Positions 1 to 4,812 of a stretch of DNA of 34,410 nt are shown in pieces. Each line of letters begins with the position of its first letter. The first letter of the stretch is position 1. The DNA comes from Spirobacillus cienkowskii. GTDB taxonomy: Bacteria; Bdellovibrionota_B; Oligoflexia; Silvanigrellales; Silvanigrellaceae. The stretch is from positions 1-34,410 of the forward strand of contig QOVW01000083.1 in assembly GCA_003339605.1 (NCBI GenBank). The letters run 5' to 3'. A program made the translations under genes and the position numbers. The notes beneath the pieces are model-generated. The model was not told the DNA's origin. It did not search any database and saw nothing but the letters and a program-made list of their open reading frames with translations.

Positions 1-1
1 G

Positions 2-454
2 AGAACAGGAAGAAGCCAAATATATAAACATTACTATCATTTAGTATTTGTTACAAAATATAGGCGTCATGTTTTTACAAAAGAAATTCTTGAACGCACT
101 GAAATTATTTTTAAAGAAACCTGTGAGCAACTTGATTGCGAACTGATAGAATTTAATGGCGAAGATGATCATGTACATATTCTTGTCAGCATTCCTCCAA
201 AACATTCTGTTGCTATTGTTGTTAGCAAATTAAAAGGAAAATCTTCTTATTTTATTAGAAAAGAATTTTGGGAACATGTTGAGAAAAAATTATGGGGGGA
301 TCATTTTTGGAGTCCTAGTTATTGTTCTGTCACTTGCGGTGGCGCACCACTTGAAGTTATTAAAAAATATATTGATGATCAAAGAAAACCATCATCCGAA
401 AAAGGTGTTGCTCAATCTATTCGGGAAAGAAAAGTTCGATTGCGAGCGGACTAA
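2..454 (+). CDS. tnpA: IS200/IS605-family transposase TnpA, 5' end cut off by the window
   Basis: The reading frame is open from the window edge to TAA at 452-454 (150 codons), so the N-terminus is missing. It reads as a Y1 (HUH) single-stranded DNA transposase: the start resembles the family's K-H-Y-Y-H-L-V-F-V-T-K-Y-R strand, the HUH metal motif is the HVH in DDHVHILVSIPP, and the KGKSSYFIRKEFW and LWGDHFWSPSYCSVTCGG segments are typical. The likely nucleophile is the Tyr of VIKKYIDDQ near the C-terminus. Such enzymes cut and rejoin ssDNA at hairpin ends without making target duplications. No TnpB gene is visible on the side that can be seen. A shadow ORF on the same strand in another frame (276-518) is not a gene. 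The family call is firm; whether the full element is intact cannot be judged here. Confidence 0.9.
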   Translation, partial: RTGRSQIYKHYYHLVFVTKYRRHVFTKEILERTEIIFKETCEQLDCELIEFNGEDDHVHILVSIPPKHSVAIVVSKLKGKSSYFIRKEFWEHVEKKLWGDHFWSPSYCSVTCGGAPLEVIKKYIDDQRKPSSEKGVAQSIRERKVRLRAD

Positions 455-461
455 TAGTTTT

Positions 462-485
462 AAAAAAGCACTAACGTGTTTTTTT
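462..485 (+). terminator. Hairpin and T-run after tnpA
   Basis: A6-G-CAC, loop TAAC, GTG-T then T6, starting 7 bases after the tnpA stop. It reads as a bidirectional A/T-flanked terminator, or as part of the right-end structure of the IS200/IS605 element. The exact element end between here and 588 cannot be fixed; an imperfect hairpin GCCCACTTCACTGGC lies just downstream. Confidence 0.5.
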
Positions 486-588
486 AATTCTCCGCCCACT
501 TCACTGGCAACAGTTTAGACGGCCTTAACTCGCTCCCAAAGGATCAAGAATGCGGCCTTGTTTTGTTCAATAAATATATCGTAACGTT

Positions 589-1806
589 TTACACAAATTC
601 CCATTTACTTAAATTTTCATTATAATTACAAAAGCCGCCGGAATTTTCTTTTACTAATTGAGAATTTTCTTTAGATAATAACTCACCTATATTTTTAGCA
701 GATTGTTCTGCAGTTATTTTTCCATTAATGTTCATATCTGTTTTTACACTACCTGGATGCAAACTTATAATTGCTATGTCTTTATTTTCTGCACGACATT
801 GCAAAGCTGCAAGTTGCGCATAATGCATGACAGAACGTTTAGAAAGGCGATAAGCAGCATAAGAATAATCGGTATAAGAAGAGTGCCCCATAATACTCGA
901 AACCATAGCAATAACTGAGTGCGGCGCCATAAAAGGCAATATTGCATTATTAAATTCTACTAAGCCAATTAAATTTGTATTAAACACATGCTGAATTTCA
1001 TTTGCTCCAAGTGACAAGGCGTAGCTTTCGCTCAGCTCATGCACTGTGGATAAAACTCCTGCATTATGCACATAAAGATTTATCTTTAAATTTAATTTCT
1101 CAAACAGTTGTTTTATAAACTGAATCGAATTTATTTTAGTAACATCGAGAGTAAGTGGACCAAAAATTTCTTTTTCTTCAAACGTACCTTTGCCACGTGC
1201 AGTGGCAATTACGGCATACCCTTGCTTAATCAATTGTTTTGATAAAGCAAGTCCAATCCCTCGAGAACTTCCCACAACCAAAGCAACCCCTCGAGGCGCT
1301 TGGCTTGCAACATCTGCAAGCCATTTTGTTAATTTTTCATGCAGGGCATCTTCAGGATCCCAAATACTCACTTCTTGATCATTCACAAATAATTTTGGTT
1401 CAACATGGCATCCAGAGCGCTTGATCATAGTTGAAACACCACAGTATTCTGTAAAGCTTAACTTAACAGCAAGTGCTACACGCTCAACACTGAGATCTTT
1501 TCCTTTTACATAATAATTTAAATTACAATGAGTAAACACAATCGGATGATGTTCAGACATACGCGCATCGCATTCGACTTCAAAAAATTCAAGTGGCTGG
1601 CGCATTTTTTGTAAAATACTGACGACATCTATTCCAGTACATGTTGCCATACTTTGTAATAATAATTCTTTTGGATTTGGCCCACCTTTAACAACTTTGT
1701 CGTCATTTTTACCTGCTATGAGGGTATCTTGCCCTTCGTCACAATGACCGGTAAATTCCCAATTTCTAGGATAAGGCAACGCTGACCAAGTTGATTTAAT
1801 TTTCAT
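589..1806 (-). CDS. Two-domain OsmC/Ohr-like + short-chain dehydrogenase (SDR) fusion
   Basis: A 405-residue protein in one uninterrupted frame. The start is the ATG at 1806, which has AAGGAG nine bases upstream; an in-frame ATG 33 bases earlier has no such site. Residues ~1-146 look like an OsmC-family domain (K-x-x-W-S start, GGPNPKELLLQSMATCTGIDV, EYCGVSTM) with the two conserved cysteines at C56 and C122, which in OsmC/Ohr proteins form the peroxidatic pair. A short linker (WDPEDALHEKLTKWLAD) leads to an SDR domain: nucleotide-binding VVGSSRGIG at 177-185, NAG at 248-250, Ser ~303, catalytic YRLSK (Y319, K323) and HPGSVKTD at 350-357. Both active sites look intact. It follows the SemiSWEET gene by 48 bases and may share its transcript. 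A redox role (hydroperoxide or thiol chemistry plus NAD(P)H-dependent carbonyl reduction) is inference; the substrate is unknown. Confidence 0.85.
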   Translation of the reverse strand: MKIKSTWSALPYPRNWEFTGHCDEGQDTLIAGKNDDKVVKGGPNPKELLLQSMATCTGIDVVSILQKMRQPLEFFEVECDARMSEHHPIVFTHCNLNYYVKGKDLSVERVALAVKLSFTEYCGVSTMIKRSGCHVEPKLFVNDQEVSIWDPEDALHEKLTKWLADVASQAPRGVALVVGSSRGIGLALSKQLIKQGYAVIATARGKGTFEEKEIFGPLTLDVTKINSIQFIKQLFEKLNLKINLYVHNAGVLSTVHELSESYALSLGANEIQHVFNTNLIGLVEFNNAILPFMAPHSVIAMVSSIMGHSSYTDYSYAAYRLSKRSVMHYAQLAALQCRAENKDIAIISLHPGSVKTDMNINGKITAEQSAKNIGELLSKENSQLVKENSGGFCNYNENLSKWEFV

Positions 1807-1854
1807 TTTACTATTCTCCTTGCTATTTTTATCTAGCAATCTCTAAAACTAAAT

Positions 1855-2356: not shown

Positions 2357-4699
2357 TTACTTAACAAAATTAGTGAGAAGTTTATCTAAAAAAGTATATC
2401 TTTTAATCGTATTTTGACTGCCTATTGCTTTTTTTACTGCCCATTCTTCGCCAAAAATAATAACATACTTACTTGCTCTTGTGATTGCAGTATAAAGTAA
2501 GTTTCGATCTAGCATAGTAAAATAAACACCAAACATTGGTATAATACACAAAGGAAACTCAGACCCTTGTGATTTGTGAACTGTCATGGCATAACAAAGT
2601 TGCAGATCATCAATTTGTTCGTCCTTATACACAACTTCTTTATCAGAAAATTCAACAATAACTTCTGTTTTTTCTTTAGTTTTACTAATACTTTTACAAT
2701 ACCCCAAATCACCATTAAAAACATCAAGTTCATAATTATTTTTTGTTTGAATCACTTTATCTCCTTCTCTTAAGTTACCATTAAAAGGTAACGTACATTC
2801 CATTTTGTCAGGAGTAGAAGGATTTAAATGATTTTGGATAATTTTATTAATATTTTCTTGTCCGACAATGCTTTTTCTCATAGGCACAAGAATTTGGATA
2901 TTTTTTAACGGATCAAGATTGTAAATATGTGGCACAGTATCACTGATAAACCTAAGCAGAATATCATGAAAAGTATCTTGTGAGCATGGTATAAATGCAA
3001 AAGGCTCTGCCTTTGGAAATACAGGGCTTCTACTAATAAAACTGTATTCAGGTTTATTGCCCGCCATAATTTCACGTGCTGCGATTGGAATTGGGCTTTC
3101 TGAGCTTTGCCTAAAAATCTTAGTCAGCCGTGCAATTGGCACAACTCCCGATTTAATAATATCACGCAAACAATTGCCCGCCCCAATACTTGGTAACTGA
3201 TCCACATCTCCCACTAAAATCAATCGACGATTTGGACCTAATACAGAAAGCAAAGAATGTAACAAATCTAAGCTGAGCATTGAACTCTCATCAACAATCA
3301 CAACATTAACATTCTCTAACGCACTTGTACTGCCTTCGAGTTCTTCAATCACTTGCGCTGCCTCATCAGCACGACTTTTTCTTCCTAAACCAAGAAGTTT
3401 ATGTAAAGTATAAGCTTGTTCTCCAATTGATGCATGCATCCTTTTAGCAGCCAATCCTGTGGGCGCACACAGCGCAACCTTACGATTTAATGCTTTTTGA
3501 ATTTCATAGATTGCTCTAAGAACAAAAGTTTTTCCGCACCCAGGCCCCCCAGTTAGGATCATCACGCGAGAATTTAAACTCATCTCAACAGCATGACGTT
3601 GCTCCTCAGATAGCTTTTGCCAAGGGAGTGTAGGAAATAACTCTGCATAACTTTTATGTCCCAAAGCAATCTGTTCTAAATACTGCTTTTCTATAAATTC
3701 AACTGCACTGCCCTTTTGTAAAAGCCCACAGATGTAACCAGCAACCTCATCTTCTAAACGCAACACTTCTGGTAAATAAAACAAAATATCAAAAGACGAT
3801 TTTTGAGAAGAGGATTGTAACGTAAAAAGAGATGTGTCGCGAATTACAAAACTTTCTGTTTTATGATCTCTATTTTTTTTAAAAATAGTGCGCAATTGAT
3901 CGAGCACAAATTCTTGTGAAAATGTGGGATCCCATTTTGCCCCCAAAAGATCGCGCGCCTTCTCAATGAGGGCGTCTCGTGGTAAGCAGCAGTGCCCATC
4001 GTCTTGCGCAACTTCGAGTGCATACACAAACGCGGCTTCCATACGAAACGGCGAGGTATTTGGCAAACCTAATTTTTGAGCAATTGCATCGGCGCGAAAA
4101 AAACCAACGCGCCTAAAATCTGCAATCAAGCGATACGGGTTTTCAAGTAAATTGGTTAGAGAGGCGGAACCATACTTTTCATATATTCTCTTAGCAAAAT
4201 TTGGCGGAATATTATGTTCATGCAAAAATATCATAATATTTCTATAAATTTCGTCATTGACCATGACCGCAATAATATTTTCAGCAATTTTACGTCTTTT
4301 TTCTCCAAAAAATTCAAAAATTTTCTCATTGTTATCACGACACAGAGTCACTAAAGAATCAAGATCAGTGAGTTGAAGCTGAGTCACAAGTTTTTCGGCA
4401 GTGACTTGTCCAATTCCTTTAACATTATTAGAAAGGTAAGGAGCTATACCTGCCACTTCTGTTGGACGCGAAGCCTCAGCATAGACCGTGACAAAAGTTT
4501 CACCGTACTTAGGGGTCGTCTCCCAATGCCCAATTAATCGATAACGTTGCTTTGCATCGGCCTTAGGAGACAACATAATTTTTCCCGATGCTCTAAAACG
4601 CTTGGCTGATTGGGTATCAATAAACTCAGCAACAAGGAAATCTCCTCTATCTGATTTGTAGCGAATCGTTGAGAGAACGCCAACTATCTCCTGAGACAC
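2357..4699 (-). CDS. recD2: RecD2-type ATP-dependent 5'-3' DNA helicase
   Basis: About 780 residues, the usual size for RecD2, the helicase found without RecBC. The start chosen is GTG at 4699, six bases after AAGGGG; the in-frame TTG at 4705 lies directly against that site and is less likely. An N-terminal OB-like region and helix-hairpin-helix segment (IAPYLSNNVKGIGQVTAEKL) precede the SF1B core: Walker A GGPGCGKTF at ~384-392, Walker B VIVDESSM near 470, GDVDQLPSIGAGN, TKIFRQSSES, and the C-terminal UvrD-like motifs YAMTVHKSQGSEFP and YTAITRASKYVIIFG. It unwinds DNA in repair and replication-fork upkeep. It reads away from tRNA-Pro and stands alone. There is no sign of damage. Confidence 0.95.
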   Translation of the reverse strand: MSQEIVGVLSTIRYKSDRGDFLVAEFIDTQSAKRFRASGKIMLSPKADAKQRYRLIGHWETTPKYGETFVTVYAEASRPTEVAGIAPYLSNNVKGIGQVTAEKLVTQLQLTDLDSLVTLCRDNNEKIFEFFGEKRRKIAENIIAVMVNDEIYRNIMIFLHEHNIPPNFAKRIYEKYGSASLTNLLENPYRLIADFRRVGFFRADAIAQKLGLPNTSPFRMEAAFVYALEVAQDDGHCCLPRDALIEKARDLLGAKWDPTFSQEFVLDQLRTIFKKNRDHKTESFVIRDTSLFTLQSSSQKSSFDILFYLPEVLRLEDEVAGYICGLLQKGSAVEFIEKQYLEQIALGHKSYAELFPTLPWQKLSEEQRHAVEMSLNSRVMILTGGPGCGKTFVLRAIYEIQKALNRKVALCAPTGLAAKRMHASIGEQAYTLHKLLGLGRKSRADEAAQVIEELEGSTSALENVNVVIVDESSMLSLDLLHSLLSVLGPNRRLILVGDVDQLPSIGAGNCLRDIIKSGVVPIARLTKIFRQSSESPIPIAAREIMAGNKPEYSFISRSPVFPKAEPFAFIPCSQDTFHDILLRFISDTVPHIYNLDPLKNIQILVPMRKSIVGQENINKIIQNHLNPSTPDKMECTLPFNGNLREGDKVIQTKNNYELDVFNGDLGYCKSISKTKEKTEVIVEFSDKEVVYKDEQIDDLQLCYAMTVHKSQGSEFPLCIIPMFGVYFTMLDRNLLYTAITRASKYVIIFGEEWAVKKAIGSQNTIKRYTFLDKLLTNFVK

Positions 4700-4812
4700 A
4701 AACAACCCCTTAAATTTGTTAAATAAATAAAAAACCCCTGAAACTTTAAAAAAAAATCAGATTCTGAGCTTGCACTTAAATTTTTTATGTGGCAAGTATC
4801 GTTTCACTAAGT

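Follow-up and report, generated by a model that had tools for sequence, protein, structure and literature searches.

The 34,410-nt window of the Candidatus Spirobacillus cienkowskii genome analyzed here contains a gene (positions 589..1806, minus strand) that we confirm to encode a genuine, conserved two-domain protein, in which a YhfA-type OsmC domain is joined to a short-chain dehydrogenase (SDR). What is new is the joining of these two families, which has a narrow distribution; the parts themselves are known. Judging from its residues and its relatives, we put the probability at roughly 0.5 that the protein arose by one fusion event and combines an OsmC-fold dimer with thiol chemistry and an active NADPH-dependent carbonyl reductase on the same chain. 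The producing organism, a member of the Silvanigrellaceae, is a pathogen of Daphnia (PMC6284087).

The frame runs without a break from an ATG at position 1806 to a stop codon at 591-589, specifying 405 amino acids, and is preceded by an AAGGAG ribosome-binding site 9 nt before the start codon (1816..1821; this and all features of the fusion gene given below lie on the minus strand). In Pfam, residues 41-136 match OsmC (PF02566) with E 4.1e-15 and a score of 56 bits, the cut-off being 27.5, and residues 174-360 match the short-chain dehydrogenase family adh_short (PF00106) with E 3.6e-24; both matches lie well above their cut-offs. The original prediction of an OsmC-like domain and an SDR in one uninterrupted frame is thus borne out, the first domain matching OsmC by profile, and the motifs that it named (C56, C122, GSSRGIG, NAG and YRLSK) are all present. 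The linker between the two domains (residues 147-170; 1297..1368) is the least conserved stretch of the protein, with 25-75% identity between species. On the plus strand, an inverted repeat of nine pairs with a T-rich tail lies within the linker-coding part (window 1301-1323); the count of such sites in the region is not above that in shuffled sequence.

A fusion created by sequencing or assembly was ruled out. In an independent, one-contig genome of the same species (G057; 2,806,830 bp) the ORF is full length and 99% identical, and five further genomes of the genus, one of them also in one contig, have full-length versions of the protein that are 41-55% identical. A profile search recovered the full-length fusion in seven of the eight genomes of the genus, by which we mean the grouping of genomes as used in this analysis; the eighth genome, which lacks it, is just 72% complete. 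Codon comparison of the closest species pair (G002 and G003) gave dN/dS ratios of 0.09 (OsmC part) and 0.07 (SDR part), and purifying selection acts on both halves.

On the evidence of alignment, tree and profile matches, the N-terminal domain (residues 1-146; 1369..1806) belongs to the wider YhfA subfamily and is not the E. coli YhfA equivalog. Its sole strong NCBIfam match is PRK10738 (YhfA), at 78.5 bits and below the equivalog cut-off of 138. Among the OsmC/Ohr models (TIGR03561/TIGR03562), the OsmC model reached E 0.11 and 12.6 bits (cut-off 85.8) and the Ohr model gave no match; a genuine Ohr of the genus (L071), taken as a positive control, scored 179 bits with the latter. In the tree, YhfA-type proteins including the OsmC half of the fusion split from OsmC and Ohr with support of 97/94. 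Among solved structures, E. coli YhfA (1ml8) comes nearest, found at E 6.6e-45 with a profile of 11 rows that has E. coli YhfA among them, and the fusion protein sequence alone also finds 1ml8 first (E 2.5e-17). With the subfamily, represented by E. coli 1ml8, T. maritima 1vla and Aquifex 2e8c, the fusion shares the OsmC fold, the two cysteines, conserved Asp60 and Lys67, and the lack of a glutamate at the position of Ohr Glu51. It differs in its C-terminal SDR, a longer N-terminal part and an additional cysteine, and its OsmC half and E. coli YhfA share 35% identity across the domain. This additional residue, Cys133 of an SGC motif (1408..1410), is invariant in the OsmC-SDR, OsmC-CinA and lone OsmC proteins of the family and absent from E. 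coli YhfA.

Both cysteines of the OsmC fold are kept: Cys56 (1639..1641) and Cys122 (1441..1443), which align with the peroxidatic and resolving cysteines, are invariant across 11 diverse YhfA-type proteins. The position of the Ohr/OsmC catalytic glutamate is occupied by Lys46 (1669..1671), a nearly invariant lysine in the YhfA-type set, which shares a column with Glu51 of X. fastidiosa Ohr, the spacing of 12 residues between the Asn-Pro motif and the cysteine being the same in both. The residue aligned to Arg19 of X. fastidiosa Ohr is a tryptophan, in an N-terminal alignment that is loose (E. coli OsmC has a lysine there), and no catalytic arginine could be placed. The domain shares PF02566 and the two cysteines with the Ohr/OsmC hydroperoxide reductases, but differs from them in having Lys46 for the glutamate and no meaningful match to their subfamily models. 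The proposal that both active sites are intact accordingly has to be divided: it stands for the SDR half, whose motifs are complete, and falls for the OsmC half, where two cysteines alone do not make an intact site when the catalytic glutamate is a lysine. These features agree with published descriptions of YhfA proteins, which keep the two cysteines, lack the catalytic arginine and glutamate, and have no demonstrated activity (PMC8945050, PMC4069020, PMC5962072).

The C-terminal domain (residues 171-405; 592..1296), delimited by Pfam, NCBI models and a structure profile, has the sequence of a classical SDR with complete active-site motifs. The GSSRGIG dinucleotide-binding motif spans residues 179-185 (1252..1272), and the catalytic tetrad consists of Asn278 (973..975), Ser304 (895..897) and, within YRLSK (838..852), Tyr319 and Lys323; each of the four is invariant, and the tetrad, NAG and the GxxxGIG pattern are kept in all fusions. 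Position 182 is an arginine in the fusions (lysine in one relative), and Arg204, after beta-2, is invariant. In SDRs, basic residues at such positions go with the use of NADPH, and Arg182 and Arg204 suggest this cofactor for the SDR half. The closest models are PRK06953/PRK08177, and the closest solved structures are the NADPH-dependent carbonyl reductase 5tqv and 5idq. Carbonyl reductases of this type share with the fusion GxxxGIG, NAG, the Asn-Ser-Tyr-Lys tetrad, a short C-terminal part and the basic residues expected for NADPH; the SDR of the fusion is only about 30% identical to lone SDRs and is set apart by its placement behind an OsmC-fold domain.

A conserved architecture in several genera, which would have supported the original prediction, was not found, and the genomes and plasmids searched speak against a wide distribution. 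A profile built from six full-length fusions and searched against 58 genomes of the phylum gave full-length matches in this genus only. No full-length match appeared in 398 sampled Pseudomonadota, for which only the best four first-look candidates per genome were scored, none of 72,556 plasmid records covered 80% of the protein, and a peptide-pattern scan of genome contigs returned just one distant SDR. The YhfA-type domain itself is common, occurring in 168 of the 398 Pseudomonadota (about 42%), where it is standalone among the matches listed, the largest such frame having 276 aa. Within the phylum, every copy besides the OsmC-SDR fusions is encoded alone, in a frame of 147-223 aa, apart from those of a sister genus, which are joined to CinA. 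The SDR halves of the fusions are monophyletic (support 100/100) on a long, separate branch, and since they form one branch, the fusion most likely happened once. The original prediction knew of no described enzyme of this kind, and likewise we found neither an OsmC-SDR nor an OsmC-CinA fusion described in the open-access papers searched.

The gene neighborhood suggests where the fusion originated. In four relatives, for which about 20 kb were examined, the order is carbonic anhydrase, BadF-type kinase, nagA-like deacetylase, fusion, cinA, and a fifth relative has nagA, fusion, cinA. Spirobacillus has the same cluster without the fusion, with nagA followed directly by cinA about 28 bp apart (L088:8548-11092), and its fusion gene adjoins a SemiSWEET-like gene and recD2. 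In G057 the two sites lie at 0.90 and 1.95 Mb, about 1 Mb apart. The ancestral place of the fusion is thus between nagA and cinA, and the Spirobacillus gene has left it. Two more genera of the family have the YhfA-type gene either adjoining cinA (G007) or fused to it (G009, G011 and G012). The OsmC-CinA proteins, encoded in three genomes of the sister genus (L086:8674-10557, minus strand; L090:8791-10728, minus strand; L011; also L008/L009), have about 627-650 aa, with the Pfam order OsmC-MoCF_biosynth-CinA for G012. Their N-terminal YhfA-type domain is 42-43% identical to that of the OsmC-SDR fusion and occupies the syntenic place beside or in cinA, whereas the partner is MoCF/CinA in one case and an SDR in the other. 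A lone SDR adjoining a YhfA-type gene was seen nowhere among the loci examined. In the OsmC-SDR genus, CinA has an eroded C-terminal PncC domain (L088:9731-11092, L083:10976-12343), with Pfam CinA scores of 31 bits in Spirobacillus and 20 bits (below cut-off) in G003, compared to 148 for an OsmC-CinA fusion. At 30 loci from Pseudomonadota (L096-L125), the short flanks showed no conserved link of yhfA to cinA or an SDR; the standalone gene has crp close by in 27 of the 30 and prkB in 12, as in E. coli.

We propose that, in the ancestor of the genus, a PRK06953/PRK08177-like SDR was added in a single joining to the C-terminus of a YhfA-type OsmC protein, whose gene would already have stood beside cinA. 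The SDR half would reduce aldehydes or ketones, probably with a preference for NADPH, through Asn278, Ser304, Tyr319 and Lys323. The YhfA half would form a homodimer, in which the Cys56/Cys122 pair might take part in disulfide exchange or in the capture or reduction of electrophiles, and would not perform the Arg/Glu-assisted hydroperoxide reduction of Ohr/OsmC. Such a dimer would hold two reductase domains, and a reactive carbonyl from the thiol site, probably lipid- or thiol-linked, could be handed over to the reductase of that chain for reduction with NADPH. For the thiol chemistry this is an extrapolation, since no protein of the YhfA subfamily has a known biochemical activity. Because the fusion is found in this genus only and the Spirobacillus gene is off its ancestral neighbors, functional coupling of the halves rests on one event. 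A single-sequence structure prediction of the fusion had a pLDDT of 37.1 and was set aside.

Several other readings of the architecture deserve consideration. It is possible that the YhfA half serves as a dimerization or substrate-binding module devoid of redox catalysis, making the protein in effect an SDR on a new scaffold, as the missing catalytic glutamate and the tight homodimers formed by OsmC-family proteins (PMC5962072) might suggest. We find this unlikely, given that the invariance of both cysteines across such diverse proteins speaks against it and that, in most comparisons between species, the OsmC domain has changed more slowly than the SDR, unlike a mere scaffold. Somewhat less likely still is the pairing originally predicted, in which a lipoyl-dependent Ohr/OsmC hydroperoxide reductase would be coupled to an SDR that clears the aldehydes arising from lipid peroxidation. 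Besides the conserved cysteines, its attraction is that the Spirobacillus genomes encode no OsmC-domain protein other than the fusion; relatives have one or two additional, standalone OsmC/Ohr proteins, whose role the fusion could therefore have taken over. The first domain nevertheless falls in YhfA and not in Ohr/OsmC, carries Lys46 for the glutamate with no placeable arginine, and belongs to a subfamily that is excepted from demonstrated peroxidase activity (PMC4069020, PMC8945050). A peroxidase with an aldehyde reductase is possible, but less likely than YhfA-type thiol chemistry with a carbonyl reductase.

We consider it quite improbable that the fusion is functionally neutral, with adjacent genes merged into one translation unit and the halves acting independently. 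The parental OsmC gene stood in a nagA-osmC-cinA cluster, where the loss of a stop codon could easily produce a fusion; the sister genus merged the same OsmC gene with cinA instead, and the linker is poorly conserved, all of which would fit a neutral merger. Against it, no near-complete genome of the genus has lost the fusion, and in Spirobacillus the gene was relocated whole to its new site.

One YhfA-type domain is tied to two different pyridine-nucleotide proteins within one bacterial family, which is suggestive. CinA is an NMN deamidase/ADP-ribose pyrophosphatase, PncC being its NMN deamidase domain. Since the same domain is fused once to CinA, which recycles pyridine nucleotides (PMC4246079, PMC3680494), and once to an SDR of the NADPH type, YhfA-type OsmC domains might act on or next to pyridine-nucleotide chemistry. 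We regard this as improbable, and the CinA fusion could be explained by gene neighborhood alone. If it were true, both fusions would be Rosetta stones for YhfA function, for example one in which a nucleotide or carbonyl metabolite, damaged or conjugated, is first handled through a thiol and then processed by the fused partner. Although it is widespread and its structure is solved, the YhfA branch of OsmC is a functional orphan, for which two independent fusions in one family offer testable hints, and the OsmC-SDR fusion, with its two putative active sites, is the sole OsmC-family protein left in the reduced genome of an invertebrate pathogen.

The remainder of the window offers some observations on the surroundings of the gene. 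A multicopy element of about 570 bp (window 1-572) ends 17 bp past the fusion stop codon. The one-contig genome contains two copies that are near-complete, and both genomes of the species have further partial ones; the element is absent at this site from the other genome, making it an insertion difference between strains. The recD2 gene is one open frame in the window (2357-4705) and is split in the one-contig genome (L082:10948-13297), where we find a one-base insertion near window position 4361 and, at 3386-3444, a short cluster of mismatches together with compensating gaps. An ORF that resembles an IS-family transposase lies on the minus strand toward the far end of the contig (window 33231-34055).
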